Positions 6,471 to 29,420 of a stretch of DNA of 64,000 nucleotides are shown piece by piece (position 1 is the first letter of the stretch; each line of letters opens with the position of its first letter). A program made the position numbers and the translations under genes. This DNA is from Tilletia caries (taxonomy: Eukaryota; Basidiomycota; Exobasidiomycetes; Tilletiales; Tilletiaceae). The stretch is from NCBI GenBank assembly GCA_032718865.1, contig JALUTQ010000004.1, positions 2,170,001 to 2,234,000 on the forward strand. The letters run 5' to 3'. Under the pieces are notes generated by a model. The model was not told where the DNA came from. It worked only from the letters and a program-made list of their open reading frames with translations, and ran no database searches.

Positions 6471-6477
6471 ACCATTA

Positions 6478-6509
6478 AGGTTCTGGGAAGCACTAAGTGT
6501 TTGATAGCT
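6478..6509 (+). repeat. left TIR of the giant element
   Basis: 32 bp, identical to the reverse complement of 29140-29171. Begins AGGTTCTGGGAAGCAC and ends TTTGATAGCT. The inner flank is rich in CCTCCGTC, as is the right end. Confidence 0.8.
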
Positions 6510-7796
6510 AAGAGGTTGCAGGCGGATGGCTCTCACACGATTTGGCTCCTCCGTCGGGTCCTCACTCCTCCGTCTGGCAACATTTCCACAGTTCCTCGCT
6601 CCGCATGCACCGGAACAGTGTACAAACCGTCTCCAGCACTTCCGGACTGTGGATGGATTTCCAAGGCACGTGACGGCCCCGAGCTCACTGCTCACGTGTG
6701 CTCGTCATGACATGCTCGCTCGCCTTCCTTGATTCCTTCCCTTTTGCTTATCGGTGGTCGACCAGCTTGGACACCATCTACCTCAAATATAACAGGATCT
6801 TCCTCTGACTACACCCCCAAAATTTTAAGAGGACCCGGGATCCTCCTGACTGAAATCCTCTCCTGTAAACTTTGGGGATTGTCAGGGATGCTCTTCAAGA
6901 TGAAATTTTACAATTCTGGAAATTTACATGTCCAGGAGTCTCCTGTGGATCTCCTGGGGTATCCTGAGCCAGGATTTCCGAAGAGACTCCTCCGAGACTT
7001 CGCAACACCGTGTTGCGAGTTGATCGACCCCGTGTCGCGAAGTGTGCGACACGGTGTCGCGAGAATTTCTGCCTTAGAAAATTTTCACCGTCCACACACG
7101 CACCCTGACCTCCCTCCACAGCCTCAGATCTCTGCTCACCATTCTTCATCCCCCCTTCCCATGCACCCGGGCGATAGCATGCTCATGCGTATCAGCACCC
7201 GAGCATCAGTGTCCTCCCTGCGCTCGCCCACAGCAGCACCAGCTTCTTCCCTAGCCCACCCACTCCCATCCGCACCCGCATCCGCCATCTGACACCATCA
7301 CTGACTTTTTCACACCGCGTCACCGCCGTCTGACTAATCACTCATCCTTCTTTTTTCCAGAGCAGTCAGCACAGCTTGCCTTCGTTCTCGTCTCTTCCGG
7401 CATTGACTGCTGACTTCTGTCTTCCCTTCCGCTGCTGATTTTTCTTCACACACCCACCCTGTCCTCACTCCTCATGTGCAGATTTCCCAACACCTTCTAT
7501 TTTTTCTCACTTTCTTCCCCTATGACCTCTGTCCTCGTCTCACCGTACAGTCACAGTCCTTGATCCGACACGTACGCGCTGTCCCGGATCAAGCAGTTCT
7601 CTTCTGTCCTTGTTTCTACGTTGTTATGTTATGTATAATGTATCATATGTCCTTCCTGTCCTTTTTCCTCACGCACAATTCCACATCATGGTATCTGTAC
7701 ATATCATAGTGTCGTCAGTCTGATTGAAAGGTAGCATGAGGAGGATGAAGGGAAATTCTGCCGCTTCTATTATAGGCCTCAGGATCATCCCTGACA

Positions 7797-8952
7797 CTCA
7801 GTGGAAAACGAAATGGACGAAACAAAGAATGTAAAGCTCAGAAATGAATGTGTGTGCAGTTTTGGCAATTTATTCTCCATTTCCCAGCTTTCGAAATCGA
7901 GCTTGAAACGAGGGTAGGATCAGGCTGGGAGCTACCGGCCGAGAAAAGTAAGAGAGCAAAAGACCATATCGATTCCAGTGTCTAACATAACATATCTAAC
8001 AGACCAACGAGAGGGGGAAGTAATTGATGGAATGTCGTCGCCCGTCGGCACGTCGACATGTTGCCGCGTAATGTGTCCTGTGAGACTGCTGTCAGGGAAC
8101 CGAATCGCAGACAGGGAGGGGGGCAGAAGAGAGGCAGACGGGCAAAGCAGCAGACGGGGAAGAGAAGCAGACGGGGAAGGAAAGCATACGAGGGAAGGGA
8201 GAAGCAAAAAGGGGGAAAGCAGAAAGAACGAAAGCAGGAAAGACCAAAGGGGAGGGAAGCAGACTGGAGAAGCAGAAAAGGGGAGGCAGCAGACAGGGAG
8301 GGTGGCAGACGGGGAGGGTGCAAAGCTGGGAGGGCAGAAGACGTGGGAAAGCAGAAGGAGGGAGGGGGCAGCAGACGGGGGGAAGTAGAGGGAGAGAGGG
8401 CATCAAAGGGGGCAAAGAGAGAGGGAGAGAGACCGGGGGAGGGGGGGGGGGGGGGGTGACATCAGACGGAGTGAGGGCAGCAGACGGGGAGGGCCGGAGG
8501 GGTCAGCAGAAGGAGGGTTAGCATCAGAAGGAGGGCAGCGGAGGGAAGCGGCAGACCGAGGCTGGAAGTGGCGGAAGGGTCGTCCAGGTTGGTGTCGAAG
8601 TCGGCCTTGTCGTCGAGACCGAGTGCATCTGTGGTGCGGACGTGTGGTGCGTGTGGTGGAAGAGAAGAAAATTTTCACTGTCTTGAGCTTCGCTGTGTTG
8701 TATTGGGATCGGGAGCTTTGTAAGCCCGGCTAATGACTACAAATTCAATGACGCGATGCCGCTCAGTTGAAATTGCCACATGGGAAACAGTGGATCGGGA
8801 CGAAATGAACCAAAACCTTAATTTGGAAATAAGGTTGGCGTCAAAGCTCCGGGATTGAAACTGGCCATATTCATTTCCGGCCCATTTTCGGACCATTTCC
8901 ACCTTTTTATCCATTTTTCATCCATATATCGTCCATTTCGTTTTCCACTGAG
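7797..8952. mobile_element. nested TIR element CTCAGTGGAAAACG, 1156 bp
   Basis: The left end CTCAGTGGAAAACGAAATGG is perfectly inverted at the right end (8930-8952). The 7-bp direct repeat CCTGACA occurs at 7790-7796 and 8953-8959, as expected for a target duplication in the surrounding element. The interior is dominated by a purine-rich minisatellite and has no transposase. Confidence 0.8.
8100..8545. repeat. purine-rich minisatellite (GCAGACGGGGAGG-like)
   Basis: Degenerate units of GCAGACGGGGAAGGA/GGAGGGCAGCAGACGGGG on the + strand, with a G-run at 8443-8457. Long open frames on both strands here (Gly/Arg/Lys-rich and Pro/Leu/Ser-rich) are repeat artefacts. Confidence 0.75.
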
Positions 8953-9547
8953 CCTGACATTTTATCCTCCTCGACATGTTGAGGATAGGGTCTAAAGCAT
9001 GTCAAGGATGATCCTCCCGCCTATGGCCACCACTGAGGCTGAGGAGGCTCCTCAAAAATTCTCAAGATGAAATTTAAAAATCCCCAGACTTTGGGGGTGT
9101 AGTCCCGTCTTCTCGACCACGGCCATCCCACGTAGTGCTTGGTTCCGCCGCCGCCGGCGCTCGTGCTCGAAACGCTTCAGGGCTCAGGCTGAGGAAGGGT
9201 GCAGAAGCATCGGGATACACTCGAGCACGAGCTGGCGAAGAAGTGTAGGACTTCTTCTCGATCCCCTCGGGCGTTTGAGGGACAAGCATTGTGGTGAGTA
9301 GTCGGTTTTCTCATCATCATCACTAGGTAGGAGCTCCGGGACTAAATGCGCCGTGCGCGACTTCTTGGATTCCCACAGCGCAGCAGGGCACACGTTGACT
9401 TCGACGCTGTAACGAAGTGAGATTGAGATGCGCACAGCCTTGACTCGCCTCTTCCCCCGCCATTCCCGCCTCGCCTCGACCTTGAAGCCCAGCCCGCGCG
9501 CCTCCACGCCCTTCGCCGCGTACCTCCACACGACACCCTCGCCCCAG

Positions 9548-10060
9548 ATGAAGATCGTCCCCGTCCTTGTCCGGTAGGACAAATATGCCTACCTCGTCAT
9601 CGACAGCGCCCACCCTACCAAGGGCGTCTTCGTTGATCCGTACACCCTCAGCACCGTCCAGGATTGAGCGAGGGAGGAGGCTGTTGAAGATGTCGTTGGT
9701 GAGTCTCGCTCTTTCTCTCTCCCGTTCAGTTGGAGGCGAGAAGGCTGATCAGTTTCTTTTTGCTCGTTGCTTGATAAGGCTGCATCACCACGCACCACCA
9801 TCACGACCACTCCGGCGGCAATGCCGACTTTGTGCGTCTTCTCTCCTGCGCAATGTAGGCCCCCCTCGCTCCTGTCCTTTCGTACGCTACCTACCCGCTC
9901 TCGAATCCACCAAACCAGGCAAACGCATACCCCTCCGCGCCCATCTACGGCGGCTCCGACCAAGTGCCCAAGCGGGCCTACCCCGTCCAAGACGGCTCCA
10001 GCTTCCCGCTCTTCCCCGGCTCGAGCATCAACGCCCTTGACGCTCGGTTTGGGGCTTGGG
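9548..10060 (+). pseudogene. glyoxalase II (hydroxyacylglutathione hydrolase) pseudogene, N-terminal part
   Basis: The ATG at 9548 opens MKIVPVLVR, then TAG (9575-9577), then DKYAYLVIDSAHPTKGVFVD, then TGA (9665-9667). An intron-like GTGAGT...AG (9699-9778) follows, then GCITTHHHHDHSGGNADF, the metallo-beta-lactamase HxHxDH zinc motif of glyoxalase II (hydrolysis of S-lactoylglutathione). A third piece reads AYPSAPIYGGSDQV, also characteristic of the family. Homology ends near SSINAL, so about half the usual ~255 residues is present. With two stops and a frame problem before exon 3 it cannot encode the enzyme. It lies tail-to-tail with the 10239-12740 gene inside the giant element, consistent with a captured host-gene fragment. 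Confidence 0.85.
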
Positions 10061-10238
10061 CGTCCGAGCACGTCGTCGGCCAACCCGCCCATCACGAAGT
10101 TGTTGAGGAAGGTCGCAAGCGGACGACGAGGATTGTCGAGGAGAATCTCTTTGAGCGTAACCAGGCCCGGTCTTTGTTCCTCTCCGCCTCTTTCACAACC
10201 ATTGTATTCATCAGGAATGAGGAAACCAGTTCATTGCT

Positions 10239-12740
10239 TTAGTCATCGTCTGAGGTAGCGGTTTCCCGAATAAAGCGTCTAGGTTGTGGGCGTATTCCAT
10301 GTCCATGGTCATCATCTTCTCCCTCCTGAGTCTGCCCCGCCCTTGCATCCGTCCTAATCGCATGAAGACTGACTGGGTCGTCTCCACTGCTGCTGTCAGA
10401 ATCACTCTGCGGAATGTATGCAATCTTGATCGTCTTGTTGCGGACGGCGGCGTCCACTGCGTATAACGGATCCCGTTTCCAGTCTCGGCCGCTCTTCAAC
10501 GACCCTCTGGTGATGCAGACACCACCGTCTACACGAGTGGTTCTCACATCGTCGGCGAACAACTCCGCAGCCACTCCCGATGGCCAGCCTTCGACCTGAA
10601 GTTGCATTCTTTTTAAGAGCGTGAAAAAGTCCTTCAAAGGTAGTCGCGGGGCCTTCTGTTTTTCAAACCTCTTCTTCGGTGGTCCAGTGCGAGAAGCTGC
10701 CAGCCATGCCTTTGATGGTTCCAAGCTGTTCTTTTTCAAAGCATCAGCTGTATGAAGTTATGATCAGTTACCACCCATTGTCCATGGCCGCACGAGACTT
10801 CAGACGATCAATACACTCACCGACTGCGCCCAACAGGTATTGTCGAACGTTGAGATCGGCGTCGGCACTGTCCTTGTCCGTCCTTGGCCGCACATCATCC
10901 GAACTGCCCGTACCCCGCTGCCGTTTCCGTCGCCTGAGGCTACCGTCTGCGTCCTCGGCGTCCTCGTCGGCATCGCCTTCTTCGCTTTCTTCTTCTGGTC
11001 TCGTGTCGCGCGCCTCTTCCTCCTCTTCCGGATCTTGCACTTCGTCCGAGTCGTCACCATCGTCCGCTTCTCGATGTTCGTCGGGCAACCGCATCGACCG
11101 GGGCGGGTTCCAACGGACGTAGCTGTCGAAGTAAGAGACCAGTTTGGCTAAGTTCCGAGACCTGGTGACACAGCGCTTTGCCACCCGTTCCGTATGGGAC
11201 GTGGCGACAATGAAACCGTTGACCTCGGGATGCGGATGCGTGACGATCACGATCGAGCAGATGCCCTTGGATTCCTCGGCTTGAACGGTGAGCTTCAGCG
11301 CACGTCGTTCGTGTTCCGCCAACGCCTCTCGCACGGACTCGATCTTGTTTGCCCTGCTACTATCCAGCTCCCATTTCTTGACCGCTTCCATCGTTGTCTG
11401 CATTCGTTCGCCGTCGGTCTTGAGGTCGTCCCATGCGGCCTTGAGCTCGGTCATGAATGATCCGTGTCCCTCTATTGAGTATCGGAGGAGCAGTCAGAAA
11501 CTCCACATAAGATGCTGACCGATTCTCTGGTCTGATCGCTGGTTTGATCTCTGGTCTGAATGGCTACTCACTTGCACCAGATTTCCCTCCCGAACCTGAG
11601 AACCAGTTTTGGAAGCGATTGATGTTGTTACTCTCCCGCACAACTTGTTCACCAAACCCCAGAAAAGCGCGCACGTCGGCGGGATGCACGCCGTGATCCT
11701 TGCAGATCTGAGAGATCTGCTCAGACAGCTCCTGGCGCAATGCAGCTATAGCAGACTCTGCATCTGCTGGGACTTTACCTCGCCGAGGTTTGATAGGTAC
11801 CTGATCTCCGGCGGTCAAGGTGACTCCGATTGCGGTATGATCCGTGTCGTTGATCGCACTCAATCGTGAGTGGTGGACCGTAACGAGGTCGGGCTGATGG
11901 CGCATGAACTTGCGCAGCGGTAACGACGGGCGTGGCGGGTGACTCCGAAGGCACGGAGGTATGCGCGTTGAAAGCCGCATCGCTTAGTAGTGCCGGGCTG
12001 GCCTGTCGTAGCTGGGCGTCAACTTCCTCTTGATAAGCGGTGAGTTGCTGCCGAAGGTCTCGGATCGATGCCAGTCGTGCCGTTTTGGCCTCTAGAAGTA
12101 ATCGGCCGTGCTCCAGAGCGACGGTCTCTGCGGTTTGCTCCAGTGACACGCTTTCGAGCTCTGCGTCTTGAGCGCCTTGGGCGAAGGTTTGCGCAGCGAC
12201 CCGAAGTTGATGAGTGTTTGCCTGGAGACCACGGAGCCTGCCCTGCAATCCACGGACGTACTGGATCTGCGGGTCGAACAGGAGGTTCCCTTGTTCTGTG
12301 TGCTGCTTCCAGGTGTCCAGTTCCTGACGGACTTCGTCGGCGGCCGCCTGAGATTGATCCGCTCGGGCTGTAGTTGCTGCTGTTTGTTCTTGGAGCGACA
12401 AAGCTCGCGCTCTATGCACCGATGCTTTGTTCCTGGAGGTCTCGATACGATGTCGCACACGCTCCAGAGTCGCTGCTTCTTCGATTGACAGACCCGCATA
12501 TGGACCTTCCGAGGCGAGGTCAACGCTTGTTTGGGCAGACGACCCAATAGCAGTACGAGGCATTAAGCCGTTCTGGGTATGTGTCCTGCTTCCGGCCTCT
12601 GGGATTGATGCCGTTGGACGGTGGACCTTCTCGGTTTTCTCATTTTTTGCCTTGCTGTCGTTACTCGTTCCCGATATCGACACGTGGTACTCTTCTTGCG
12701 CGTGTGATGGGACGATCAACCATGGATCCTCCGTCCTCAC
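10239..12740 (-). CDS. coiled-coil / acidic partner gene divergent from KDZ transposase
   Basis: Multi-exon gene starting at ATG 12740, 439 bp from and divergent to the transposase start at 13179. Exon 1 encodes a long Ala/Gln/Glu-rich coiled coil (SIEEAATLERVRHRIETSRN ... LRQQLTAYQEEVDAQLRQ). The frame changes between about 11860 and 11980, then continues AAIRQELSEQISQ-like sequence. A GTGAGT intron near 11570-11474 joins GGKSGA to KGHGSFMTELK. The middle exon has an E/D-rich stretch (DPEEEEEARD). A 75-nt intron near 10822-10748 joins LLGAV to ADALKKNSLEP. The stop follows ATSDDD at 10239. No enzymatic domain recognised. Its fixed divergent position suggests an accessory protein of the element (inference). 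The exon-1/2 frame change may be decay. Confidence 0.6.
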
Positions 12741-13178
12741 CGCCTCACCGCCTCACCGCTGGATACCAGCCGCATTACCCTTGGCAAGACCACGTCAGTA
12801 CCCTCCTCTTACCCTTATCAGTCATAACCCAGATACATACCTGGTCGCTGTTCAGACTTCACTGCACTGAAGTGGATCGCAGGCCCGCGGGATCGTGGCT
12901 GGTGGCAGCGTACTGGCAGTAGGTCAGTTTCACCCCACTGCGCGTGCGTACCGAGTCTCTGACTGCTGACATGCGCCTTGAATCTTGATGCTTTCACTTC
13001 CAGCAAGTACCATCAACGTTCTACGTTCATGCCTTCGGCCCCTCCCACTTAACCCGTCTCGCTCGTCTTGGGCTCGCCTCGGTCTCTTTCGGTGACACTA
13101 TTCCCCTCACCAGTCACCACCTTCCTTCAGCTCGGTGAAGATCCCCACCGTCTCTTCATCACCACTTGTAGCCTTCCG

Positions 13179-16100
13179 ATGGCGCGCAAACGCATCGGTC
13201 GGCGCAAACATGACCGACCTGCCTTACGGAACGTTGCCCCGGGAAGGAGTTCACGCAGCGATCTGCTCCCAATCATCGAGCCACCGCAGAGCCGTCAGAG
13301 CTCTACTCGCCATCTCTCTCACGCTATTTTGGGTTCCCGAGATCGAGGTGCCGACCCAGCTCTGGAAGATGAAGGGTTGGATGGCTGGGGTGGTACGGCG
13401 CTATTCTTCGACGATAACGGCGGCCCTGACGCTTACGACCAAGGCGACCTCAACGAGCCACAGGACGACCCCTTTTCGTACCAGTCTCCATTTCTGGCCA
13501 CAGCTTCAACACTCCAGCGTCGGCAATGGTGATTGCGCATGCTATCCCCAAGCCTCTTGTTCGGTTTTGGGCCTGGCACCGACGCGTCAACGAGCTCGCT
13601 CCCCTGGTTCCGGACCTTCCCAACGCATTGCAGATGCGGTCAGCTTTAGCATGCAGCTGCGACCTCCCCACCCAGAACGGCTACGACATACGGATAGTCA
13701 GCCAGGATGGTATGCATCAACGCCGAGTCCGTTCATGCAAAGATCATCTCTTATCCACTCTCCTTCGCGGCGGAATGTTTCCTGCGTCGCCAGTTCTTCC
13801 CCGCATCGCCATCGACATCTCAGTACTACGAATGTATACAGCGGCGAGTAACTGGTCAAACGCCAGTGCCTTTGGCTATGCGCATGCGCTGCATGAAGTG
13901 TCTGGGGCCATGTTTTACAACGACGGACTACGCAAGTTACTTCAATCGGCCTCCCTATGGTATTCAGTTCTTCGACACTACGCCCACCAAATCGAAATCA
14001 ACGGCTCCCGATGCTGGTCCCCGACACGGTCACCAATCACCCAGGACGGCCTCAGCCTAACCTTTGCTGATCTCCTCAGCCATTGTCCTTCTTGCTTCTA
14101 CAGCCTCTCCGACGTTGCCCGGTCCGACAAGCAGTTGTCTCATCACAAGCGGCATCCACAGCTCATTGTAGCTATCGATGGCAACTTCACGCAAAGAAGG
14201 CTCGCCAACTTGGGTCTGGTAGGGCGCAGTGCCCTTCCGCCCGCCTTTTTTCTATCCGAGAACCAAGTACAGGGTGTGGAAGAGATGATGAACAGCGAGA
14301 CCGGGGACAACGACCCTCACGACGGCAATGAGACCAGCCCTCCGAATCTGCATGCTTGCTCGTCGAACATTCTCGCAGCTGATGAGCGAGCCGCCAAATC
14401 AGCTCGTGGTCCATGCGACATTACGGGGCTGATGGGATTATGTTGTCGTCATGACATCCCTCTCGTGTTTTGCGATATTGTAACGCCCGGTGAGTCTCCC
14501 CCTCACCCTCGTACCTCCCGTTACCTTCCCTGGCAGCATCGCTGACGAAGAACGTATACTCACACGCAGGCGAGAGCAGGGCTCGGCAAAACTAAGGCGA
14601 CTAAGAAACTAAGACTATCCGACTAAGCCTTAGTCCCGACTAGACTAGACTATGACTAAGGGGTTTTGGCATCTGACTATGACTATGACTAAGGCCCCGT
14701 CAGGTCCGACTATAGTCGGTCTTAGTCTGTTAGTCAGACCCATTTTTGGGTTTTCGTCCGGGCTGAGATGCCTGGAAGGTCCTCCTTTGCATTCACAAAC
14801 TATTCCGAGTCGTGCCTTTTGAATTAGTAGGAACACATAATTGTGACAGATATCTCAGACTAACATCCGACGATTAATCGGATTAGTCCGACAAATAGTT
14901 TGACGTGTCCGACATCTGACTAACATCCGCATAGGCAGTTAGCTGAGTTTCTAATCTCTATTCCATAATGTGTTATGTACACAGCTTCCCGGGTGTGGTA
15001 CCGGTCGTGTCTATTGGCCGACCCCGGTCGGTTTAGGTCGACGGGCCGACCCCGGCACTAGAGCAGTCAGAGCTCTAAAACCACAAAACTTCCACTTTTC
15101 GCCTCTTTAAGCCAAAGAAAACGGCTCCTCCCTTACTTTCAACAGCAATTCTGCATCGATTGACCTCAAATCTCGCATGAGTACGCGTACAGGTATCCTT
15201 GACATCCATGCAAAATTTGAGCCCGCTTTATTAAGTAGGTTGCTGGGACGGTCAAGGAGGGTAACTCAGAGGGGTCGAGTACCGACCGGGGTCGGCCAAT
15301 AGACAAAACCGTGTGGTACCACTCCCACCTCTGCACGTCGGCTTGCAAACGGTACGGGGGTCATACTCTTTATACGACGATCTCAGCACCAGTATCCAGT
15401 GGCCAGTGCTATACTAGGACTATAGTACCAACTACCAATGTTCAGTGCTATAGTAATTGGTAGGACTATAGTAGGACTATAGTACCACTGGCCGGTGCTA
15501 TAGTAGGACTATAGTATCTGTAACCAGTCATCAGTGTGATAGTAAGTATTACAGTCTTACAGACAGAAGTGCTATATAGGTCCCATAGAAGTGCTATGGG
15601 AGATACTATAGTAGTGCTATAGTACTGTCTGTCAATATCAGGTGTCTGAAAATGGCTGCAAAACAATATGAGAACGGCTCAAGAATGGCCTGTGATTCAG
15701 GATCCCGAATCACAGGCCATTCTCAACCCGTTCCGCAGTATCGGCCGTAAGTCTCAAGACTATTTGTCGATCAATAGTCTCATAGTCGGACTTAGTCTAA
15801 CTAAGGAAACTAATAGTCGGTTAGTGACACGTTAGTCACACGCTAGTCAGGTCCCCTTTCGACTAAGCCAAACTAAGAAACTTAAGTGACTATTAGTCCC
15901 GATTAGACTAGACTAACGGACGGTCCAGGTCAATGTGACTATGACTATGACTAAGGATTTCAGAAAAGCACCGACTATTAGTCGTTGCCGAGGCCTGGGC
16001 GGAAGACATCATTACGCAGTCGCTCTACTCAAATACTTGGTTGACGCTGTTCCAAACTTACACCGCATTGGCGTGCTGTACGATATTGGATGTCGCTTTC

Positions 16101-19511: not shown

Positions 19512-20280
19512 TAAGGTTGTCCCCGGAGTAACGCGGAGGGCTCCGCCTCCGCACTTCCAAATTCCGCCGGAATTTTGACCTTTTGAGGCGAGCTCCGCCT
19601 CCGCAGACTAAGACAGAGCTGAAAAAAACCAGCTCCGCGTTCCGACGGAATTTTGCCAAAGTTGAAATCCCAGCTCCGCGCTCCGCGTTTTTTCTGTGCG
19701 TTTTCATAATGCTCCTCCGTGCTCCGTGTATGCGGAGCTCGGAATTCCGCGGAACTCCGTCGGAGCGCAGTGGTGGTATAAGTTGCTCTCAGAATGACTC
19801 TAATACAATCAGAGCTACAAATTCACCGTCCGACACTGTTGCGGTATTGACTCCAGTGCTATTTTGAAGCTCTCAACGGATGATGATGCCTGTCTTATCC
19901 CCTGAGCGTGTCTCGACGATGCCTATTTTCTCGGAATTCCGCACATTTCCGCGGAACTGCGCACCCAAATTGAGGTCATGTGACCCCTATTTTCGACTAT
20001 CACGTGACCTCACAGCTCCGTCGGAATTCCGCGGAAATTCCGCCGGAATCGTCACACCATTTGGACGACTCCGTGCTCTGCACTTTTGACCAGTGGGCCC
20101 AGCATTGGGCTCCGCGCTCCGCGTAAATTCCGGCGGAGTCCTCCAGGCGGACTCCGTGCTTTCAAAGATCAAAAATGTCTCAAAAGTGAGTTCCGCGCTC
20201 CGCCTCCGGCGGAGCCCTCCGTCGGAGGAGTGCGGAGTCCGCAAAACCCCAGCTCCGCGTCAGCTCCGGGGACAACCTTA
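19512..20280. mobile_element. hAT-like MITE, TIR TAAGGTTGTCCCCGGAG, copy 1 (769 bp)
   Basis: A perfect 17-bp TIR flanked by the 8-bp direct repeat TGCACATC (19504-19511 and 20281-20288), the target duplication length of hAT transposons. The interior is full of CTCCGCG, GGAATTCCGCGG and CCGCCGGAATTTT words. A second, inverted copy lies at 51511-52252. The insertion is 5 bp beyond the stop codon of the BED-finger gene at 20294. Open frames in it (such as RRAPPPQTKTELKKTSSAFR) recur in both copies but show no domain and are probably non-coding. Confidence 0.92.
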
Positions 20281-20293
20281 TGCACATCACGCC

Positions 20294-21695
20294 CTAGCAG
20301 TCCTCGGGGCTTGGATTGGCTGCTACGATCCCGGTGTGGGGAGCAGTGATTGCTTGGGTTGACGCCGATGAAGTTCCGCCGCTCGTACGATGTTGGCTGG
20401 AGGAGGTACGTGGCGTCGGTCTGTACGGAGCCAATCCTGGGGTCCGGGGCTCCTCTCGGTCCGGACAGTTTTTGAGGTGACGAGACAGGTTAGTTGTGGA
20501 CCCACTTGCCTGATTGGTTGGCCAGAAACAGCACCGACACATCCATTCGTGCCTCCACCGTGAGCCGCGCGGCGAGCGTCCCATCAAGTCAAAGTACCGA
20601 AGGGCTGCGAGGCTGGAGAGGTTGTTGAGGGCCTGACTGCGCCAGTCATCCAAGCCGTTGACGAACACGGTAGGAACACCTACTCTATCCTTCGCTGCGG
20701 CTCGGGCTGAGATGATTTCCTTGGACCCACTCCCGTCGTAGCGGGGACGCTGGATAGCTGGCTGGGTAGGTTGGGTAGATGGCTGGGTAGATGTACCACC
20801 TCTCGGCGGCGATGAAGGCGGAGGCGTATGTTGGTCGACCTTCATGTTTGCTGACGGTTCGAAGCTCGGGAGACCGTGGTCTGACGCTGTCGAACTACCC
20901 TCTTCGCTCTCCTCATCCTCGCTGTCCTCGTCAGACGACGTTGTCCTATAGCTGAGGTCGTCCGGGTCGTCGTATTCGTCGCCGCCAAGACCAAGCCCCT
21001 CGTCATCCGGCAAGACCAGATCAGCCGACGACGCACCCTCCACGCTCCTCTCTTCTTCGCTTGAGTCATCAGAATGCGCGTCGTGTTCTTCCGGCAATTC
21101 CATCGAGCTGTCCAGGATGTCCGCCAGTGGCGAGCGTGCTGCGCGTTGGACTGGAAACAAAGGCGAATCGGGCGGATCCTCGAACGGGTCGTCGGGGAGG
21201 ATGCGAAGGGTGGCGGAGTTGCTGCTGGCTGTCGGTGCGGAGCTTGCTGTTCCGTAGAATGACCGGGTGGGAGCTGCGGGAACGGCCGGGGGCGCCAGAG
21301 GTACCTGACGATACAGTTGCTTGAGTAGGCCGGCATGGTACCCCTGGGTTACTTTGCCTGCGAACTTTCTGAACGCGACGCGAATATGCTTGTCTTTGAT
21401 CGAAGGCTGAAGACAAAATGGGAAGCAACGAGTGATGAGTGGAAGCCAGAGGGAATACCGTACCAAACCCTTGACTCACCATCTCTGTGATAGCGAAGGA
21501 CCTGATCGGCATGTCCTCGTCTACGCGTTTCTCACCGTATGGAAAGAAGAAGTCCCGCCAACGTTGCTGCTCGTGGATGTTAAGGTCGAGAGAAGAGAGC
21601 TTGACCTCAAGGTCGTGGAAGCTGAAGGTTTGGTCCATGAGAAACCAGCGGCCGGCGACAGCAAATAGCTCCAGTTCCCCGTACGACGATGGCAT
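20294..21695 (-). CDS. BED-type zinc-finger protein, transposon-associated
   Basis: Exon 1 (21695-21480) starts MPSSYGELELFAVAGRWFLM. A 73-nt GTGAGT intron (21407-21479) joins ITEM to PSIKDKHIRVAFRKFAGKVT. Exon 2 has a D/E-rich segment (DDSSEEERSVEG, SDEDSEDEESEEG), a Ser/Pro linker, and a BED-like finger WMCRCCFWPTNQ...NLSRHLKNC (Cys-x2-Cys ... His-x4-Cys). It ends SPEDC. BED fingers bind DNA and usually sit at the N-terminus of hAT transposases. Here no RNase-H core follows, because the frame stops and the MITE begins 5 bp later. Either the catalytic exons were lost, or this is a stand-alone DNA-binding regulator. Confidence 0.65.
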
Positions 21696-21971
21696 CTCTG
21701 GTGAGTAAGGGCATAGACAGAAGAGGATGGCAAGGAAGGAAAGAATGCGATAGATGCCTGAGGAGCAGCGACGTCTGTAGATAATCCGGTAGACAGTAGA
21801 CCGCTATCCAGCGTTGTCACGTGGACGATACATTTACGTGGGGATCAAGACGTTCAGCGGAAGACCAGGGCACGCAGATGGAAACGAAGATGGTAGGGAA
21901 CGTCGACGATTGTATTCCGTTACGATTCTGAGGAAGGGATACATGGTCCTACACGGCATACGCCACACGTA

Positions 21972-23015
21972 TCAGGCGTCGTATCGGGTCGTGGCTTCGC
22001 AGCGGATCGGCTTTCCTTCTCCGTCGAGCTCGAGACCGGGAAGCGGCTCTGCGGGTTTATGAGCCTTCTTTTGTAGGCATCCGCCGAGGCGAGTGGGTGT
22101 TCCGAATAGATGGGCCCCAAGATTGGAGACCTTGTGCTTGGGCACATGAAGGACTTTGTGGCAGGCGCGACACTTCCATGCCTCTCGCGTAGCCGATCGA
22201 TCGCCGGTTTTGTCGAGTGGTCGCTTCACGGCAGGCACTGGGCGACGGAAGCTTGGACGTTGGCGATTGGCTGGAGGAGGCTCCATGCCGATAAAGTGGA
22301 AAAACTCGATATATCCCGACGACGAGCCTTCGAGCGAGTCGCGCGCGTTTTGACTGATTGGAGAGGAGAGAAGATGCTGAAGGTCGTTCTGGGAGAGCGG
22401 GCCGCAGTAGGCGTGCGGGGAGGCAGACAAAGAAGCAAGTGCTGGGAATGGCCACGAATGAAGACCTTTGACCGGCTCCCCGCCCTCAATGGCCAGGCTT
22501 GCGGCCGGGCTGTGTCCTTCTCGCTCCGACAGGTTCGCAGCCGCGCGCCGAGTGAGTATTGGCTGTGCCGTAAGACCGGCAGCGGGAGGGTCAACGCTGG
22601 CAACTGCGGCGGGAGGAGGAGCTTGCGCGCTGGACGGAAGCTGGTGAGAGTTCGAAGAAGCTGCGGCAGGGGGTTGCGCGCTGGAGGGAAGCTGCAGAGG
22701 GTTCGAAGTAGCTGCTGGGGGGGAACTGCTGCCCCACAGCAACGAGGCGGTACTGGAGAGCGTGTTGCTGACAGGAGGCATCAGAGGCATCACATCCTCG
22801 TCCTCGTCGCCGGAGTCGTCGGAGGGATCTTGGAGCCGCCAAGATTCTCCTTGCGTTGAAACTATTTGCGACAAGCCTGGTCCGACTGTGTCCCGGTGAA
22901 GTCCCGACTTGGTGTAGGTTGTTCCTCCTTGAGTAAGGGTCTCGACGAATCCATCAGCATTGACCGTCCGGGAGACGACGCGTTGTGAGAGTCTCGGCTT
23001 GTAGATGGCAGCCAT
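21972..23015 (-). CDS. second BED-type zinc-finger protein
   Basis: The ATG at 23015 (MAAIYKPRLSQRVVSRTVNA) is preferred over an in-frame GTG 34 codons upstream. Order: Gly/Thr-rich N-terminus, acidic DDSGDEDEDV, two LPSSAQ-type Pro/Ala/Ser repeats, a conserved-looking PFPALASLSASPHAYCGPLS segment, then a BED-like finger WKCRACHKVLHVPKHKVSN...H followed by a basic tail, ending TTRYDA. 347 residues in one intact frame. In tandem, same strand, with the BED gene 276 bp downstream. Neither has a transposase core. An accessory gene of the giant element, or the remains of a hAT inserted into it. Confidence 0.6.
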   Translation of the reverse strand: MAAIYKPRLSQRVVSRTVNADGFVETLTQGGTTYTKSGLHRDTVGPGLSQIVSTQGESWRLQDPSDDSGDEDEDVMPLMPPVSNTLSSTASLLWGSSSPPAATSNPLQLPSSAQPPAAASSNSHQLPSSAQAPPPAAVASVDPPAAGLTAQPILTRRAAANLSEREGHSPAASLAIEGGEPVKGLHSWPFPALASLSASPHAYCGPLSQNDLQHLLSSPISQNARDSLEGSSSGYIEFFHFIGMEPPPANRQRPSFRRPVPAVKRPLDKTGDRSATREAWKCRACHKVLHVPKHKVSNLGAHLFGTPTRLGGCLQKKAHKPAEPLPGLELDGEGKPIRCEATTRYDA

Positions 23016-23363
23016 GAGGATTGGTCTGGTGGTCGGACACGTCAAAGCTCGACGCGTCAGACGCGCACTTTCGCGTCGGGGGGATAAAGTAGCGTGGTCA
23101 CACCCGACCGTTCCCACGTGATTTACCGTGAAAGAGTTACGATTTCTGATGTGACCACTAAATTCACTTAGTATCCCTACCAGTATCCTCTTTCACAACA
23201 TCCCCAAGAAGCACCGTGACCAGCTCCCGTTCCGTATCAAGAGGATTGTCGTCGAGCCCAAGTAACCCCTCCATCGCACACCACCTCATCGACCAGCCTA
23301 CAAGAAGGCCAGCGTTCTCCCTAATCCGTTGAACCAAGAACGAGGTCATACGGAGCTTCACGG

Positions 23364-23698
23364 TCTCGGTCAGGGCCCGCGGGCAGGTACCTGCTCTCCC
23401 AGGCAGTCAACATTTGCTCCCTCGAGCCCGTCCACTTCCGGCCTGTCTTCAAGCTGCTTCCCCGATCCATGATTGCTGAGGCTACGGCCCAGTGCCAGTG
23501 AGTAAGAACCCCCCCCTCCCCCCCCCCCTCTCGCTCCACATTCAGACACCGTGGGCTGTGCTTTTACTAACCCTCGACGGTATTCTGCTCTTCGTCTTCG
23601 CCGTTCTCAACCCGGTCAAAGCTGTCAGCTGGTTCCAGTCCCATCTCGCCAAGTTGCACATGCAGCTCAGCGGTGAACAGGACGACGAGGATCCCTAA
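23364..23698 (+). pseudogene. membrane-protein gene fragment
   Basis: The first part reads GRYLLSQAVNICSLEPVHFR up to a GTGAGT donor at 23498. After a 48-nt intron-like stretch rich in C, the second part reads TPWAVLLLTLDGILLFVFAV (one membrane segment) and ends GEQDDEDP-stop. The two parts are out of phase by one base across the canonical splice, so the gene appears broken. An upstream frame on the same strand ends FRIKRIVVEPK. Family not recognised. Together with the adjacent AlaRS piece it looks like captured host sequence. Confidence 0.4.
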
Positions 23699-23838
23699 CC
23701 CAGATCGCGTACCACACGCGTCCACCGTTGGCGGCGGATCCATTTCTGTCACCGTCGCCAGGTTCACCAGCCCCGTATCCGCAGCGGTTGGCTCGCCAAT
23801 GGCTGCCGGACTGATCACTATGTTTTGGTTTCATGCAG

Positions 23839-24615
23839 GCACGTCGCGAAGACTGGCGTCATCAAGGACGTTGTCATCATTGAGGAGAGCAGAGCGGTAT
23901 CGCGAAGGGCATCCGCAGAATCATAGCGGTTACGGGCGAGGAGGCCGCGCAAGTGAACCGGCTGGCGGCTGACGCCCAGCGGAAGCTCGAGACTATCAAT
24001 GCGGGGACGGACCGTGCCAAGAAGGACGCTGCGCTCAAGGCGTTCTCGACCGAGTTGAACCAACTGGAGATGTCCGTTCTGAGCAAGGCGGAACTCAACG
24101 AGGCGTTCTCTACCATCTGGAAGAAGCACGGTGCCGAGGTGAAGGCGAAGCGAAACGCAGAGACCAAGCTCGTCCAGGACACGGTGACACCGTACTTCTC
24201 CACCGAGCGACCGAACGCGACCTTCCTGGCCCGACACTTCCTCGTAGGCTCCAACACGAAGGCGCTCCAGGCGGGCATCCTCGTCGCGAAGCAGCTGAAC
24301 AAGGCCATCTACTTGTTCAGCGAGGAAGCCCTTCCCTCCGACTCCGAGGCTCAACCGCAAGCGGCAGAAGAGGACGCAGGCAGGCACACGCGTCAAGGCG
24401 CGCGTGGCGCATCTCAACTTTGTGCCAAAGCAGGTCCTCGAACGTGGACTGAAGGCCAAGGAGTGGGCGGAGGTGATCACGAAGAGCATCGGTGGCCGGG
24501 CGGGTGGGAAAGACGATGGTGTGGAGGGTGTGGGTGAGGATGGGGGGACTGCGCGTGGGGATGCGCTGATTGCTGCGGAACAGTTCGTGGTGCTTCAGAC
24601 GAAGGAGAGCAAGAT
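23839..24615 (+). pseudogene. alanyl-tRNA synthetase C-terminal fragment
   Basis: After an acceptor (TCATGCAG) the frame reads HVAKTGVIKDVVIIEES. It shifts to IAKGIRRIIAVTGEEAAQVN and runs through NRLAADAQRKLETI...FLARHFLVGSNTKALQAGIL. It shifts again to VAHLNFVPKQVLERGLKAKEWAEVI...RAGGKDDGVEG. This order (HVA-TG-IKD, RRI-AVTG, C-terminal GGKAGGKDD-like motif) is that of the post-editing and C-Ala part of cytosolic AlaRS, which is normally ~950 residues. The aminoacylation and editing domains are absent. Two frame breaks and truncation make it non-functional; the essential gene must be elsewhere. Likely a cargo fragment. Confidence 0.82.
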
Positions 24616-25390
24616 GCCGATGCAGGGAGGGATTCCCCTCCTTCTTCGATCTTACACGGGGCACTCCGGAGGCTCGATTCGATTCAATTTTCCGCCTACA
24701 ACGAGGGTCGTCTTCGGATTTTTTTTCCTCAGTGGCATGCTCCTCGTCAGCAGAAACCATGGCTATTACTACCCCCTTCGATTGCAGGCCAACATCAACG
24801 GCTCTTCTTCCTATGGGTGTATGATGAAAATATGGCTTCCCTGTCGGCACCCAGTACATCACATAGGCAGTCCCGCAGTCCTGCAAGCTATTACTGGATA
24901 CAGCAACGACAGCCTCACTCCGGAGACGAGTTTGGGTGGACCTTCGACAATATCGATGTGAGGTCCCTCGACGACGGTCTCCGTTTCTACTTCTTCTCTC
25001 TCACACATTTATCTCTGAATCGTGACACTCATGACTCAATCGAAAGGACATTCATTCCTTCCTCTTCATCTATCTGACCCTGGAGCCTAGAGAGCCTTCA
25101 GCCAGCCAGCGCACGGGTGTCGAGATCAGCAGCGAGGCGCAAGCAGAGAGGAATCGGTCGGCGTGACGCTTGCGGGTGCGGGTCCAGGCGGGGCCCATCG
25201 ATCTGAGAGGGTCCAAACGAAGCACTGCCCCTCTCTGCCCCTCTATCAGCAGCCCTCCCCTACAAGCACCTACAAGCAGAATCGCATCAGAGAAGTTTCA
25301 GTGTGTAGGCATGCATCTCGTCGGTAACCCCATGCTTGTGTCCCTGCGTTGCTGTGCGCTGATCGCTACACTCGTGTTTGCTGACTTCAG
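24616..25390 (+). other. intergenic with no assignable gene
   Basis: The AlaRS reading frame stays open to 24961, but the extension has no family similarity. The rest contains only short frames. Confidence 0.5.
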
Positions 25391-25395
25391 AGACA

Positions 25396-25403
25396 TATAA
25401 AAA
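25396..25403 (+). promoter_or_regulatory. TATA box for the 25494 gene
   Basis: TATAAAAA lies 98 bp upstream of the ATG at 25494. Pyrimidine-rich sequence (TCTTTTCCCTCTTC, CCCCCTCTTCTTCTT) between TATA and ATG is typical of fungal core promoters. Confidence 0.5.
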
Positions 25404-25493
25404 GTCGTTCTCTTTTCCCTCTTCAGCGGACCCCCTATTCAATCAAGCCCCTTTCCACACATTCTTCCTTCAGTCATCCCCCTCTTCTTCTTA

Positions 25494-26138
25494 ATGCCTG
25501 CTCAGCGAGTCATCCCCCACGCGCCCAATCGTAGCTGGGGAGTTAACAACATCATCGGCTACCGAATCAGTCCGACGACGCACGAGGAAGAGCCTCTCTG
25601 CGAGTGGGATAACACCTACATAGCATACGGAAAGTTTTCCAACCCAGACCAGGCCCGCCGCGACGTCGCGGCGATCAAGCGACGACGAAGAAGCTCGCCC
25701 CCACATCCTAACTCCGACCTACCGCCGCCTCCGGGGCAGGCGCTTCCGGTGCCACTCTCTGACCCAACGCCCAATCCCCCCCTTCGCTCGACATTGCCTT
25801 GCCGTCCTCCGCCTCCGCCCTCCGACCCAGCGCCCGATACCCCCATTTGCTCGACATCGCTTTGCCGTCCTCCGCTCTCCCCTAACCCTCCAGCCCTGCC
25901 CCTCCGTCCGCTTCACATGTTGCCGCCCCGGCCCAAGCACCGGGGAAAGCGAGGCGGCGGGCTGGAACACCAGCAGCGATCGCAGGACATCTTGAAGAAG
26001 GTGAGTTTCTCGAGACCCTCCCCCTCTCCCACGCGCTTGCGCGAGACCCTGCCACTCTCCCACGCGCTTGCGCGAGACCCCGACATCCTTCCCCCTCTGC
26101 ATTTAGGGCTCCCAACTCCCTCTTTCCTTCGGCACTGA
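25494..26138 (+). CDS. Pro-rich hypothetical protein
   Basis: The ATG at 25494 follows a TATA box and pyrimidine tract. The first ~60 residues ([40 protein letters not shown]) look like a folded segment. The rest is Pro/Leu/Arg-rich and contains an imperfect ~66-bp tandem duplication around DPxPxxPxxSTxxCRPP. A GTGAGT donor occurs just after ILKK near 26001, so the frame beyond it is probably intronic. Family not recognised. It sits directly upstream of an H2B-like fragment on the same strand. Confidence 0.45.
26019..26080. repeat. 31-bp tandem duplication with CCCACGCGCTTGCG
   Basis: Two units of GAGACCCTSCCMCTCTCCCA followed by CGCGCTTGCGC. The core CCCACGCGCTTGCG recurs twice in inverted orientation at about 27254-27294, bracketing 1.2 kb that includes the H2B fragment. 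Confidence 0.7.
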
Positions 26139-26304
26139 CTGATTACAATCTCCTTTTGTCAATACAAATGCAAGTTAACCCCTCGCCCGCTCGCGCCCGC
26201 TCCGAATCCTTTGCCCCCCCCCCCCCCCCTTCCGTACTTTGCCAAGAAACTTCTCTCGCCCGCGGCCACGATGAGTCCCGCTGCGGCCAGTCTGGGCATC
26301 CTCG

Positions 26305-26497
26305 GCCCTACGGAATCGAACGACTCGCTCAGCGCATCGGCTCCGGGGCCTCCAAGCCTGCATCCTACAACAGGGAGTCGACCATTACTGCCCGCGAGAT
26401 CCAAACGGCCGTCCGGCTGATCCTCCCCGGTGAACTGTACAAGCACGCCATCTCCGAGGGTACCAAGTCGGTCACCAAGTACTCATGGAGCAAGTAA
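26305..26497 (+). pseudogene. histone H2B C-terminal fragment
   Basis: The frame ending at 26497 reads [20 protein letters not shown], then [20 protein letters not shown], then [18 protein letters not shown]. It matches the H2B C-terminal half, including the [19 protein letters not shown] signature and the AVTK-SSK tail. The normal N-terminal tail and first helices are missing and the upstream frame is Pro/Ser-rich non-histone sequence. Several substitutions occur at positions normally invariant in H2B (for example KLA to KPA). A captured and diverging fragment rather than a working histone gene. Confidence 0.85.
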
Positions 26498-26729
26498 ACG
26501 CGCGGGTCTTTCCAACCTCGTCTTTACTTCTCATCCGCTCCAGGCTTCCTCTCGACTCGGCCGTCCAATGCGGGACGATGGGTCTCGACATCAGGCTTCT
26601 ACCTCATTCATTCCTGCTTGTACCTCCTTTATGAAACGCGTCTGCCTCTCACTCTCCATGTACCACTAGTCCACAGCAACACACACTTGTTTCTCATACT
26701 TGTTCTGCACTGAACTGGGCTGGCTTCCC

Positions 26730-27033
26730 CTTGTCAGAGCAGACGTGATGATGAGGGGACACGAAACGCGTCGAGACGCGACGGTACCCAGGGTCGACGC
26801 GAAGTACGCTGGAAATCTTGAAGAGCAACCACCAACTGATCCACGAAGTACAGATACGATACGAACAAGGCCCCGAGACGCTAAAGGAGACGCGCGGACG
26901 GAGCGTGCACCATGAACAGCGCCAGCTCGACCCGGACGATGCGCGGCTCACGCTCGCCAAATGGTGTTGGACTTGGCCTCCAATTCTCAACGTCCTCCCC
27001 GGGCAGGTCGCCTCTGTGCAGACGACGCAGTGA
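26730..27033 (+). other. coding-like fragment, unassigned
   Basis: The + strand frame contains STLEILKSNHQLIHEVQIRY and LDPDDARLTLAKWC, which read like a helical, charged protein segment, with no ATG. The opposite strand is low complexity. Possibly another captured exon. Family not recognised. Confidence 0.3.
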
Positions 27034-27342
27034 GACGAAAAGCGACGATGACGGCGAGGGGAGCTCACAGGTGGACGGCGCCGCCGCTGCTGCTGCTCTT
27101 GTTCCTCTGGCTCCTGCTGCTGTCGGTCCGGCCGCTGCATCGCGCTCTTCCAACGGGCGCGCATCTGCATCACGCTCTGCCAGGACGAGGAGACTGCGGA
27201 ACAGGAGGTGCGGGAGATGGCTGAGTAAGGGCACGAAGGAGCGTGAAGAGAATCGCGCAAGCGCGTGGGAGAGTTCGCGCAAGCGCGTGGGCCTGCCACG
27301 TCCGAAGCTATACTTATGTGCGTGTGCGAGAGAGAGAGGTGC

Positions 27343-28445
27343 TCACATCGTACCCCTGCCCGCCTCCCAGAATCCCTTCTCCAAATTGACGACCTGCCTC
27401 CAAACTCCCTGCACACGCGCCAGCATGTCCGAGTCCAGCCTGGTGATGTCCCCACTTCCACCATAGCCGTCGAGGAGGTCTCCGAGGATTTCGACGAAAC
27501 TTGCGAATTCGGCGGCGGACCAGTTGTTGATGAGGAGTGTGAGGGCTTCCGATTGGGATTGGGTGAAGGAGGCGGCTTGGGACCAGGCGCGGTAGTAGAG
27601 CTGCAGGAGATAAAGGGAATGAATGGTCAGTTCCGGCATCTAAAAAAAAAGAAGTGCAGGGAGAAAATACTCAGGACGATCTCCATAGCCCACAGGAGGG
27701 TGAGTTGCTCCAAGAAGGTGCCCGTGTGCGCGACGCGGGACATGTAGTTCAGATAGGCGTCCGTCTCCGGTGCCAGCGGGTGGAACGACAGCGCGGTTGT
27801 GCCTTGTTGCTGCTGGGTTCCGTCTGGTTTCGTGCTTGGGCGGGGTGGACCGACGGAGAGGTCGAAGCCTGCGTCGGCGGCTGTCTTCTCGACGAACTTG
27901 GCTTCGCGGATTGCGTTCTGTGGATGGGAAGAGAGAGAGAGAGTCAGGTCAGAGCGTAGAGAAACAGAGAGAGAGAGGGAGAGAGAGAGAGAGTAGTAGT
28001 ACGCACACTGATGGCATCACCCATGACCTTCACCGTCCGCATATACCTCCCACTCTCGTCTGCATTCGGCCCCAGATGGTGCCCGACCCCCGTAGGCGGC
28101 AAGGGGACCTTGGACAACATGCTACCCATGAGCGGCAGGTATCCCCTGAGGATGTAGTGTCTGTCCTGTGCGAGCCATGCCTCGAGACGGTCCGGGTGGA
28201 TGGTGCCGCGGTTGATGAAGGTGATGAAGGGGTGCGTTGTCGTTGCGCGGTCGGCCTCGGCGGGGCAGAGGGAGAGCAGGTGGTGGGTCAGCTTGGACTC
28301 GATCTTTGTTGTCTATCAGGCGGGCCTCTGCAGCGTCGTAGGCCTTGAGGTGTTCGAGGGCCTGGGAAGGGTCGAGGTGTGGGCCGGTGTGAGAGATGGC
28401 ATTGGAGAGCGGCGGTGGTCAAGCTGGCGTCTGCGATGGGAGCAG
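27343..28445 (-). pseudogene. TENA/THI-4 family (haem-oxygenase-like fold) gene, broken
   Basis: Minus-strand exons. About 28445-28300 encodes HLDPSQALEHLKAYDAAEAR and then breaks frame. 28306-28007 encodes THPFITFINRGTIHPDRLEA and WLAQDRHYILRGYLPLMGSM. An 89-nt intron with GA repeats follows, then 27917-27678 (NAIREAKFVEKTAADAGF ... LEQLTLLWAMEI), then 27600-27343 (LYYRAWSQAASF, LINNWSAAEFASFVEILGDL, stop). The WLxQDxxY, LLWAME-xYxxAW and NWSxxEFxxFV motifs are those of fungal TENA/THI-4 proteins, related to thiamine-salvage thiaminase II. The final exon lacks a strong donor partner (GTCCTG) and the 28300 frame break removes the start. I regard it as a decayed copy. Confidence 0.75.
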
Positions 28446-28504
28446 GATACTTTATGGAAGAGGGAAGGGCGTATGGGTGAGGAGGTGAAAGGGACCAGGA
28501 CCAC

Positions 28505-28790
28505 GAGTTAACCGCGGTGTCGTCGCCAGCGCGGGCGAGGTTGCAGGGGCCGAGCTACATCATAAGACCGGGGAGAGGAGAGAAGCCGGGATCTGAATGA
28601 GCGTAAAGGGGGGGTCAATGTCTCGGGTATCTGTGCAAGATTAAGAAACGAAGGAGCACTCACCTCCTATGAGCATGAGGCAGAGGGCATAGAAGTCTGT
28701 GACTGGATTGGAATGGTGACTGGATTGGAATGTGACTCGAAGAGCCAGATGGAGAAGTGTTCGGTGATGCCTGTGGCGAGATCATGGGCG
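28505..28790 (-). pseudogene. serine carboxypeptidase (S10) fragment
   Basis: The minus strand reads TGITEHFSIWLFESHSNPVT and, after an internal short duplication (TGGATTGGAATG twice), TDFYALCLMLIGG to a GTGAGT donor. After an intron-like gap it continues PGFSSLPGLMM, TAG, LGPCNLARAGDDTAVNSWSW. This parallels the S10 block H-F-WxFES-xxP..DPLxLWLxGGPGCSS-GLxxELGPC...N-YSW. Only the oxyanion-hole region is present. GPGCSS is changed to PGFSS and a stop replaces the acidic residue before LGPC. Non-functional fragment adjacent to the TENA copy, near the right TIR. Confidence 0.6.
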
Positions 28791-29139
28791 CGGGCAATGT
28801 GGATCGTTATGCTGCTGGCGGTGCTGGTGGTGGAGACGCCAAGGTGTCCACTTCAGGAGCGCGCGCCCTTTGTGGGTGTCGCAGAGGTACGAAGCAGACA
28901 GATAGCAGGCAGAAGGCAACGAGGAGGAGAAGGGGGGTTCAATCGGCCTTGGACGCGATCAGGCACGGTGATCGCGTCTGGGCCTGACCTTTCGGCCGAT
29001 AGAAGCGGGACAGGGTTGCGGGTTTTTGGAAGGGGTCCACCGCAGCACGATCGCCGGAGCGGCGATTGGGAGGTTGGTCCGCGAGAAGGTATTGGCGGAC
29101 GGAGGAGTGGGCAGAAGGAGGCGTCTCCCTCTACCTACA

Positions 29140-29171
29140 AGCTATCAAACACTTAGTGCTTCCCAGAACCT
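29140..29171 (-). repeat. right TIR of the giant element
   Basis: 32 bp, exact reverse complement of 6478-6509. Inner flank contains GGACGGAGGAGTG, the complement of the CACTCCTCCGTC near the left TIR. Confidence 0.8.
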
Positions 29172-29184
29172 AATAGGCAATAAA

Positions 29185-29420
29185 ATGATGAGCCACAGGT
29201 GAGCTGGAGCTACTACATAGTGACTATCTAGTGGCTATATCAGCCAAATGGAATTTTTCATAACTATTTCAACTATTAGTTACTCCGCGCCGATCTGAAA
29301 AAGTTATAGCTACTATTTTTTCTAGACGGCTTCGCCGCCCAAAGTATAGTCAAGTTATCACTATAAGTTATAACTATATAGTTATCATAGTTACATAGTG
29401 AAGATAGTTGCCGAGCCTTG
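29185..29420 (+). repeat. ACTATAG/AGTTATAAC-type repeat ending GCCGAGCCTTG
   Basis: Contains ACTACATAGTGACTATCTAG and a GC palindrome (CGGCTTCGCCG) near 29327, then TATAAGTTATAACTATATAG, ending GTTGCCGAGCCTTG at 29420. Same 3' terminus and orientation as 587, 30086, 30813, 34963 and 55915. Confidence 0.6.

Follow-up and report, generated by a model that had tools for sequence, protein, structure and literature searches.

Two copies of a KDZ transposon family in Tilletia caries carry different mosaics of host-gene fragments inside the right end

The DNA analysed here (the window) is a stretch of 64,000 nucleotides from Tilletia caries (assembly GCA_032718865.1, contig JALUTQ010000004.1, positions 2,170,001 to 2,234,000, forward strand), in which a first-pass annotation had proposed a 22.7-kb KDZ transposon with 32-bp terminal inverted repeats (TIRs) and a cargo of accessory genes and gene fragments. 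The 32-bp repeats belong to a single transposon whose ends lie further out, and this transposon is one member of an old, two-copy family of KDZ DNA transposons, the other copy being on the contig labelled C19. It is likely that this family, with 8-bp target-site duplications (TSDs) like those of cut-and-paste elements and with one open transposase gene, holds right-end mosaics of host fragments that were most likely made by template switching. All genome searches were carried out on one genome of 38.1 Mb in 40 contigs (labelled C3, C4, C5, C19, etc.).

The perfect 32-bp inverted match at 6478-6509 / 29140-29171 is present as claimed, and the extra inward similarity, CACTCCTCCGTC, is seen inside both arms. 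With the 203-bp left end as a query, one further full-length match was found in the genome (C19:708661, 97%), and 5.8 kb downstream of this place the KDZ protein is matched at 96%. This second copy occupies C19:708630-726809 (18,180 bp) and has the 32-mer at either end with one mismatch per arm. From comparison of the two copies it can be seen that the termini first given, 6478 and 29171, were wrong and that the true ends are 6447 and 29201, i.e., 31 and 30 bp outward; no TSD was found at 6478/29171, the ends being 30-31 bp outside that boundary. The TIR is thus about 62 bp long with the repeat noticed earlier as its inner 32 bp, and the element termini are 5'-CA...TG-3'. A 16-bp TIR core, AGGTTCTGGGAAGCAC, has exactly two occurrences in the genome, both at the window element, and scattered repeats without KDZ genes, which the annotation had named as evidence against a unit, were looked for genome-wide and not seen. 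The outer features are as follows.

6447..29201, no strand assigned: KDZ transposon, window copy, 22,755 bp, 5'-CAGCCC...CAGGTG-3'; homology to the C19 copy begins and ends there
6447..6509, + strand: left TIR, outer 31 bp imperfect and inner 32 bp perfect
29140..29201, - strand: right TIR, inner 32 bp and outer 30 bp
29087..29201, no strand assigned: conserved right-terminal segment of 115 bp, which limits the variable cargo

The C19 copy has a perfect 8-bp TSD, TATAGGTA, at its outer ends. When pairs of identical 8-mers bracketing the KDZ gene were compared in 50 kb around the C19 locus (9,360 pairs, simple 8-mers excluded), the TATAGGTA pair scored 60 for inverted-end similarity and the next unrelated pair 28. 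With the same ends and a perfect TSD at the second copy, the proposal of a single mobile KDZ unit between the repeats is supported. The backbone common to both copies, in the same order, consists of window positions 6447-6810, 9102-14576, 15998-19511, 20281-23694 and 29087-29201, which correspond to C19:708630-721552 and 726692-726809, with an identity of 96.0-98.9% per 1-kb block and approximately 97.5% overall (gaps excluded). The copies are about 3.6% apart in three non-coding or end stretches, and the near-neutral backbone distance is 3.3-3.6%. Within the KDZ codons there are 30 differences at 1,761 first and second positions and 29 at 881 third positions; since first and second positions differ less than third positions or non-coding sequence, the KDZ gene was at least weakly constrained.

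The KDZ transposase reported between the repeats is confirmed by the Pfam KDZ domain (PF18758; E 1.2e-13 in exon 1 and 8.7e-26 in exon 2), together with CxC2 (PF18803) at 33.8 bits against a cut-off of 27, CxC1 being under its cut-off; this domain scan covered ten open reading frames (ORFs) of the window, a subset of all ORFs. The features of the KDZ superfamily, namely the KDZ domain, a CxC cluster and TIRs with an 8-bp TSD, are all found (the TSD at the C19 copy and not at the window copy).

13179..17353, + strand: KDZ transposase gene (CxC2 + KDZ), frameshifted and interrupted in the window copy

The window gene is out of frame and split by a 1.42-kb insertion, and thus broken. In the C19 copy there are two predicted open exons (883 amino acids) with an intron at 714392-714471 that has GT..AG borders, and the family could presumably still move. 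Among the 26 relatives of the KDZ protein (E <= 1e-10; 7,995 candidates scored), 23 are from named Tilletia species; the top ones are from T. indica (61%) and T. caries (59%), and the relatives listed carry PF18758.

Inside the right end the two copies part. The host-derived pieces that had been suspected in the element could be traced to parental loci elsewhere in the genome: the window cargo (23,692-29,086) contains at least eight host-locus fragments from eight loci on six contigs, and 4,176 of its 5,395 bp are assigned, to eight fragments of 116-995 bp (whole-genome search with all 27 candidates scored, refined on fetched parents, fragments of at least 100 bp counted). They are listed below with the adjacent backbone fragment, identities of the cargo pieces to their parents being gap-excluded.

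23401..23691, no strand assigned: older captured fragment, common to both copies, in two pieces at 93.2 and 91.7%; parent C30:1225898-1226320
23691..23806, + strand: endosulfine-family gene fragment; parent C5:33017, 87.9%
23806..24739, + strand: alanyl-tRNA synthetase (AlaRS) fragment; parent C23:282900, 89.9%; begins within a predicted parental intron
25206..25718, no strand assigned: fragment, gene unknown; parent C27:320894, 88.1%
26082..26331, no strand assigned: fragment, gene unknown; parent C3:1924847, 92.2%
26331..27221, no strand assigned: three colinear pieces; parent C40:238820 (C40:238286-239660), 94.8% in the largest
27322..28316, - strand: TENA/THI-4-like gene fragment; parent C5:2184234, 94.6%; non-coding sequence between coding segments retained
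28327..28885, no strand assigned: two more diverged fragments; parents C13:703163, 85.4%, and C5:1505615, 79.9%

Twenty parental ORFs were scanned (some on the wrong strand), and six have a Pfam match. Three of these are pieces of alanyl-tRNA synthetase, one is an endosulfine and one a major facilitator superfamily (MFS) transporter; the sixth has an IMPDH domain, with the C13:703163 fragment upstream of it. For TENA/THI-4 it was the window fragment that gave the match (22.2 bits, cut-off 22). The parental genes are larger than the fragments (tRNA-synt_2c E 7.4e-64, endosulfine 8.9e-22, MFS 5.7e-19). Of the cargo as first described, the gene fragments stand, while no identified piece is a whole passenger gene.

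The cargo of the C19 copy (C19:721553-726691) is an unrelated 5.1-kb mosaic from other loci with the same start base. Its parents in the whole-genome search (all 33 candidates scored) are C15:915600 (1,268 bp), C5:2499803, C19:989717, C5:2498768 and C19:145013, the last with more distant relatives at several places, together with a weak C40 match (75%) and a short piece of a multicopy repeat. When compared directly, the two cargoes have only short simple-sequence matches in common (best E 0.002). The change from backbone to cargo falls on one and the same base (23691|23692 and 721549|721550, with TCC next in both), right after the common C30 piece, and both copies regain shared sequence 115-118 bp before the right end. 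Elements of this kind can thus take up and swap host-gene pieces. The same-base start may be either coincidence, a single replacement using the TCC beside the older join, or a preferred exchange point. That the point just inside the right terminus is preferred, with transposase-linked breakage making the element a recurrent, autonomous shuffler of gene fragments by wholesale cargo replacement, seems doubtful to us.

As regards the manner of capture, the pieces from the alanyl-tRNA synthetase, TENA and MFS genes retain non-coding sequence of their parents (introns, judged by reading frame), and the template was therefore DNA. At seven joins between pieces of different loci (borders abutting unassigned DNA were left out of this count), microhomology amounts to 1, 1, 1, 0, 0, 4 and 0 bp. 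The C19 cargo follows a C5 locus, continues with 631 bp from C19:989 kb and then resumes the same C5 locus colinearly and in unchanged direction; these two parents have only short matches in common (best E 0.026). In the window, stretches of 259, 193 and 141 bp of the parents are missing from the C40 and C30 pieces, with no splice borders at these gaps. We propose that a break within the element was likely repaired by DNA synthesis which would have changed from one unrelated host template to another at 0-4 bp of matching sequence, i.e., by template switching, and which would finally have rejoined the right terminus, so that the stretch just inside it may have been filled repeatedly with patchworks of host fragments. 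From the form of the joins, template-switching repair is most likely the best description of the mechanism, with gap repair presumed over another joining process, and capture may have been coupled to transposition.

Other readings of the same data have to be considered. The view that two unrelated terminal repeats flank a repeat-rich stretch by chance, with no single element between them, could point to the window copy, which has no TSD and has unlike flanks, but it is contradicted by the independent C19 locus with the same two ends, order and backbone and a perfect TSD, and is highly improbable. Next to impossible, in our opinion, is the reversed direction, in which host genes were assembled or copied from the transposon: only the shared sequence itself speaks for it, and where domains can be named the parents run past the fragment as larger conserved genes, of which the element has pieces. 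Capture from spliced transcripts, as with histone H3 in fungal hAT elements, where capture of cDNA is described in the accessible text (PMC6710886), was considered because three gaps in the parent-cargo alignments resembled missing introns. The gap borders are not GT..AG and other pieces (alanyl-tRNA synthetase, TENA, MFS) hold parental non-coding sequence, so this candidate was rejected as very improbable.

A stepwise origin is the remaining alternative, according to which the unit is real while its mosaic was built in many steps, by serial filler end-joining, decayed nested insertions or ectopic recombination between former copies. It would be in keeping with the spread in identity of the window pieces to their parents (79.9-94.8%), with the older C30 fragment common to both copies, and with window flanks that derive from two sites, as after inter-copy recombination or deletion. 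On the other hand, four C19 pieces from three contigs fall within a narrow range of 95.2-96.1%, as if from one event (the fifth has 92.0%), the return to the same C5 template and the forward skips on one template are typical of polymerase jumping, and at the seven joins shown neither a TIR nor a TSD was noted, although no dedicated scan of them was made. We therefore regard the stepwise origin as unlikely.

A difficulty for our interpretation lies in the timing of capture. Gap-excluded identities of the five C19 pieces to their parents are 96.1, 95.6, 95.2, 95.7 and 92.0%, i.e., a divergence of 4.3% pooled over the four larger pieces and 8% for the fifth, and in the window cargo the divergence is 5.3% for C40 and TENA, 7.8% for C3, 10.8% for AlaRS, C27 and the C5:33017 piece, 14.6% for C13 and 20.1% for the second C5 piece. 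These values lie at or above the backbone distance of 3.3-3.6%, a result at odds with simple capture following the split of the two copies. All of them also exceed the distance between bunt species, which are given as 98.7-99.6% identical in the accessible part of the source (PMC9172201), and host allelic diversity is for this reason an unlikely source of the divergence. Judged by these distances, the four C19 pieces look like one event, slightly older than or about the same age as the copy split, and much of the window mosaic looks older. Capture also predates the split, because the C30 fragment is common to both copies, and window-type cargo may in part be older and have been replaced in the C19 lineage.

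Besides this misfit in age, several observations weigh against our interpretation. There are only two copies in the genome, and a single insertion is not verifiable by its own footprint. The window copy has no TSD at the corrected ends, its flanks being CGGCGCCG / AGCTGGAG. For approximately 1.1-1.2 kb of the window cargo the whole-genome search gave no parent. Of three control stretches of 5.4 kb, the left flank of the window (1000-6400) is itself a patchwork of repeats (40 of 90 candidates scored), and patchiness is consequently not unique to the cargo. No other KDZ family of this genome was shown to capture in the sequence examined, and when variable cargo was sought in the family described below (C30, C19, C5 and C23), the left parts of the two fetched copies differed only by a miniature inverted-repeat transposable element (MITE). 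The other two controls gave no match beyond a MITE in the first 460 bp (C19:730001-735400; 40 of 76 candidates scored) and only paralogues of a C19 gene family and a MITE (C19:701501-706900; 40 of 52 scored).

A MITE also lies at the right border of the window copy, where it is cut exactly at the element end.

29202..29420, + strand: right 219 bp of a high-copy MITE of about 615 bp

It is present in at least 38 other places at 95-99% identity among the matches listed, and of four copies fetched three are whole and the fourth (L061) has a shorter upstream part; all extend upstream past the cut in the window. The rest of the MITE was sought in the left flank of the window and is not there; therefore, the window flanks no longer come from one target, which a deletion up to the right terminus or a recombination between two copies would explain. 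The left flank has no other place in the genome among the matches listed, and the joined flanks, used as a query for an empty site, gave no joint match (40 of 152 candidates scored in both cases). Within left-flank positions 1000-6400, a 1.28-kb piece is 97% identical to a single place (C4:994734) and other pieces are related to C23 and C39.

The length of 22.7 kb holds (22,755 bp), although about 4.5 kb of it consists of nested insertions that are absent from the C19 copy (2,291, 1,421 and 769 bp).

6811..9101, no strand assigned: 2.3-kb stretch absent from the C19 copy, presumably a nested insertion; inverted ends CTACACCCCCAAA, no TSD seen
14577..15997, no strand assigned: 1.42-kb insertion in the transposase gene; ends CAGGGCTCGGC...GCCGAGGCCTG, flanking 8-mers matching in 6 of 8 bases
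19512..20280, no strand assigned: 769-bp insertion absent from the C19 copy; exact 8-bp TSD TGCACATC

The ends of the right-flank MITE, CAAGGCTCGGCAA, are similar to those of the insertion in the transposase gene. An inverted copy of the 769-bp insertion, 89-94% similar and with the same 42-bp end, lies at window positions 51511-52252. Window positions 50428-51511 and 61772-62982 form a large inverted repeat pair, with arms that reach 358 bp at 97% and are separated by about 11 kb; these may be the ends of another element.

Three further gene regions lie in the shared backbone.

9184..12752, - strand: divergent partner gene region with several ORFs; relatives in Tilletia laevis and T. controversa
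18042..18953, - strand: acidic ORF of 303 amino acids, no Pfam match
20294..23192, - strand: two ORFs of 393 and 406 amino acids, BED-finger matches sub-threshold

A partner ORF matches a T. laevis protein at 100% identity across 81% of its length; the second BED-like ORF has 99% identity to one from Tilletia caries across 85% of its length. The naming of the 393- and 406-amino-acid ORFs as BED-finger genes is not upheld, since they reach 13.8 and 17.1 bits against a Pfam cut-off of 20.6.

Elsewhere in the genome there is a diverged relative at C27:718841-733532, with a KDZ protein at 64% amino acid identity and the partner-gene match about 12 kb downstream, not divergently upstream; no convincing pair of TIR and TSD was found for it in 50 kb. 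Two other KDZ families have four copies each, one at C30:500688, C19:340300, C5:1640839 and C23:893942 (98.5-99.5% alike over the fetched parts) and one at C33:1327746, C20:6370, C33:1316928 and C7:1739840 (98.2-99.9% alike over the fetched parts). Because of these near-identical copies, KDZ elements seem to have been active recently in this genome. The left end of the first family, CTCCTGTGGCAGG (L065:353-391, C19:337853), resembles the right end of the present element, CACCTGTGGCTC, possibly as a common KDZ terminal motif.

The element had been cast as a possible basidiomycete counterpart of cargo-carrying giant elements. Giants of the Starship type have a tyrosine recombinase captain gene and carry whole passenger genes; among the ten ORFs scanned (a subset) no tyrosine recombinase domain was found. 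The identified cargo consists of fragments, so the element is probably Pack-like instead. Helitrons move by a rolling circle, are not known to have TIRs or TSDs and encode a Rep/helicase protein, whereas the present element has TIRs and an 8-bp TSD and no Rep/helicase domain in the ten ORFs. Capture of host-gene fragments in basidiomycetes is what it has in common with fungal Helitrons, as far as the available text goes (PMC4289320).

The comparisons that follow likewise rest on the accessible portions of the papers cited. Among fungal KDZ elements, KDZ1 of Cryptococcus is 11 kb long with 241-bp TIRs and an 8-bp TSD, KDZ2/3 have TSDs of 4-8 bp, Kyakuja has CA..TG ends and 7-bp TSDs without TIRs, and Zisupton has 8-bp TSDs (PMC12810828, PMC12730594). 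The present element shares with this group the CxC-domain KDZ transposase, TIRs and short TSDs, and with Kyakuja the CA..TG termini. It differs in being 18-22.8 kb long with variable mosaics of host fragments, where the others carry whole accessory genes (TET/JBP dioxygenases); no TET/JBP match was found among the ten ORFs scanned. KDZ elements of up to 30.3 and 31.7 kb are described in Ectocarpus and Chlamydomonas, with accessory genes and nested insertions, and some of their transposase-less giant families are likened to Pack-MULEs (PMC12477816). The great size, accessory genes and nested insertions are the same here, and with an active 31.7-kb KDZ in Chlamydomonas (PMC12477816) size alone is not special; in the portion of that paper available, the algal elements are without mosaics traced to host parents and without copy-specific cargo.

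With plant Pack-TYPE elements, including Pack-MULEs, and with animal Pack-TIRs the present element shares host fragments between TIRs, parents elsewhere, microhomology at joins, and the proposal of gap filling or template switching (PMC8903248, PMC8277862), the latter discussed as the mechanism for animal Pack-TIRs (PMC8277862). Pack-TYPE elements are defined as non-autonomous (PMC8903248). The element studied here is Pack-like in its working and by definition not Pack-TYPE, because its C19 copy has an open transposase gene (883 amino acids); in addition, it belongs to the KDZ superfamily and has a basidiomycete host. The nearest fungal cut-and-paste case found is the hAT family of Dothideomycetes with a transduplicated histone H3, which also has an 8-bp TSD and capture of a housekeeping gene, but there one gene was taken up as a transcript or retrocopy and is present in many copies, as against many loci captured at the DNA level in two copies with different cargo (PMC6710886). 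A fungal co-option screen gives gene capture by helicase-bearing elements and, in its accessible text, no KDZ (PMC10799480). No KDZ capture of host-gene fragments was found in a literature search that left most subscription journals outside it, and novelty is unproven.

Cut-and-paste shuffling of gene fragments is best known from plant Pack-TYPE elements, which have no transposase of their own. Here, two host-gene mosaics are found within one KDZ family whose second copy retains an open transposase gene. If our interpretation is true, this would be a fungal counterpart, among TIR transposons, to capture by Helitrons, and would add one more superfamily to those that capture. Since the parents of most of the window cargo are known, the mechanism of capture, in one repair event or stepwise, becomes testable in sister bunt species.

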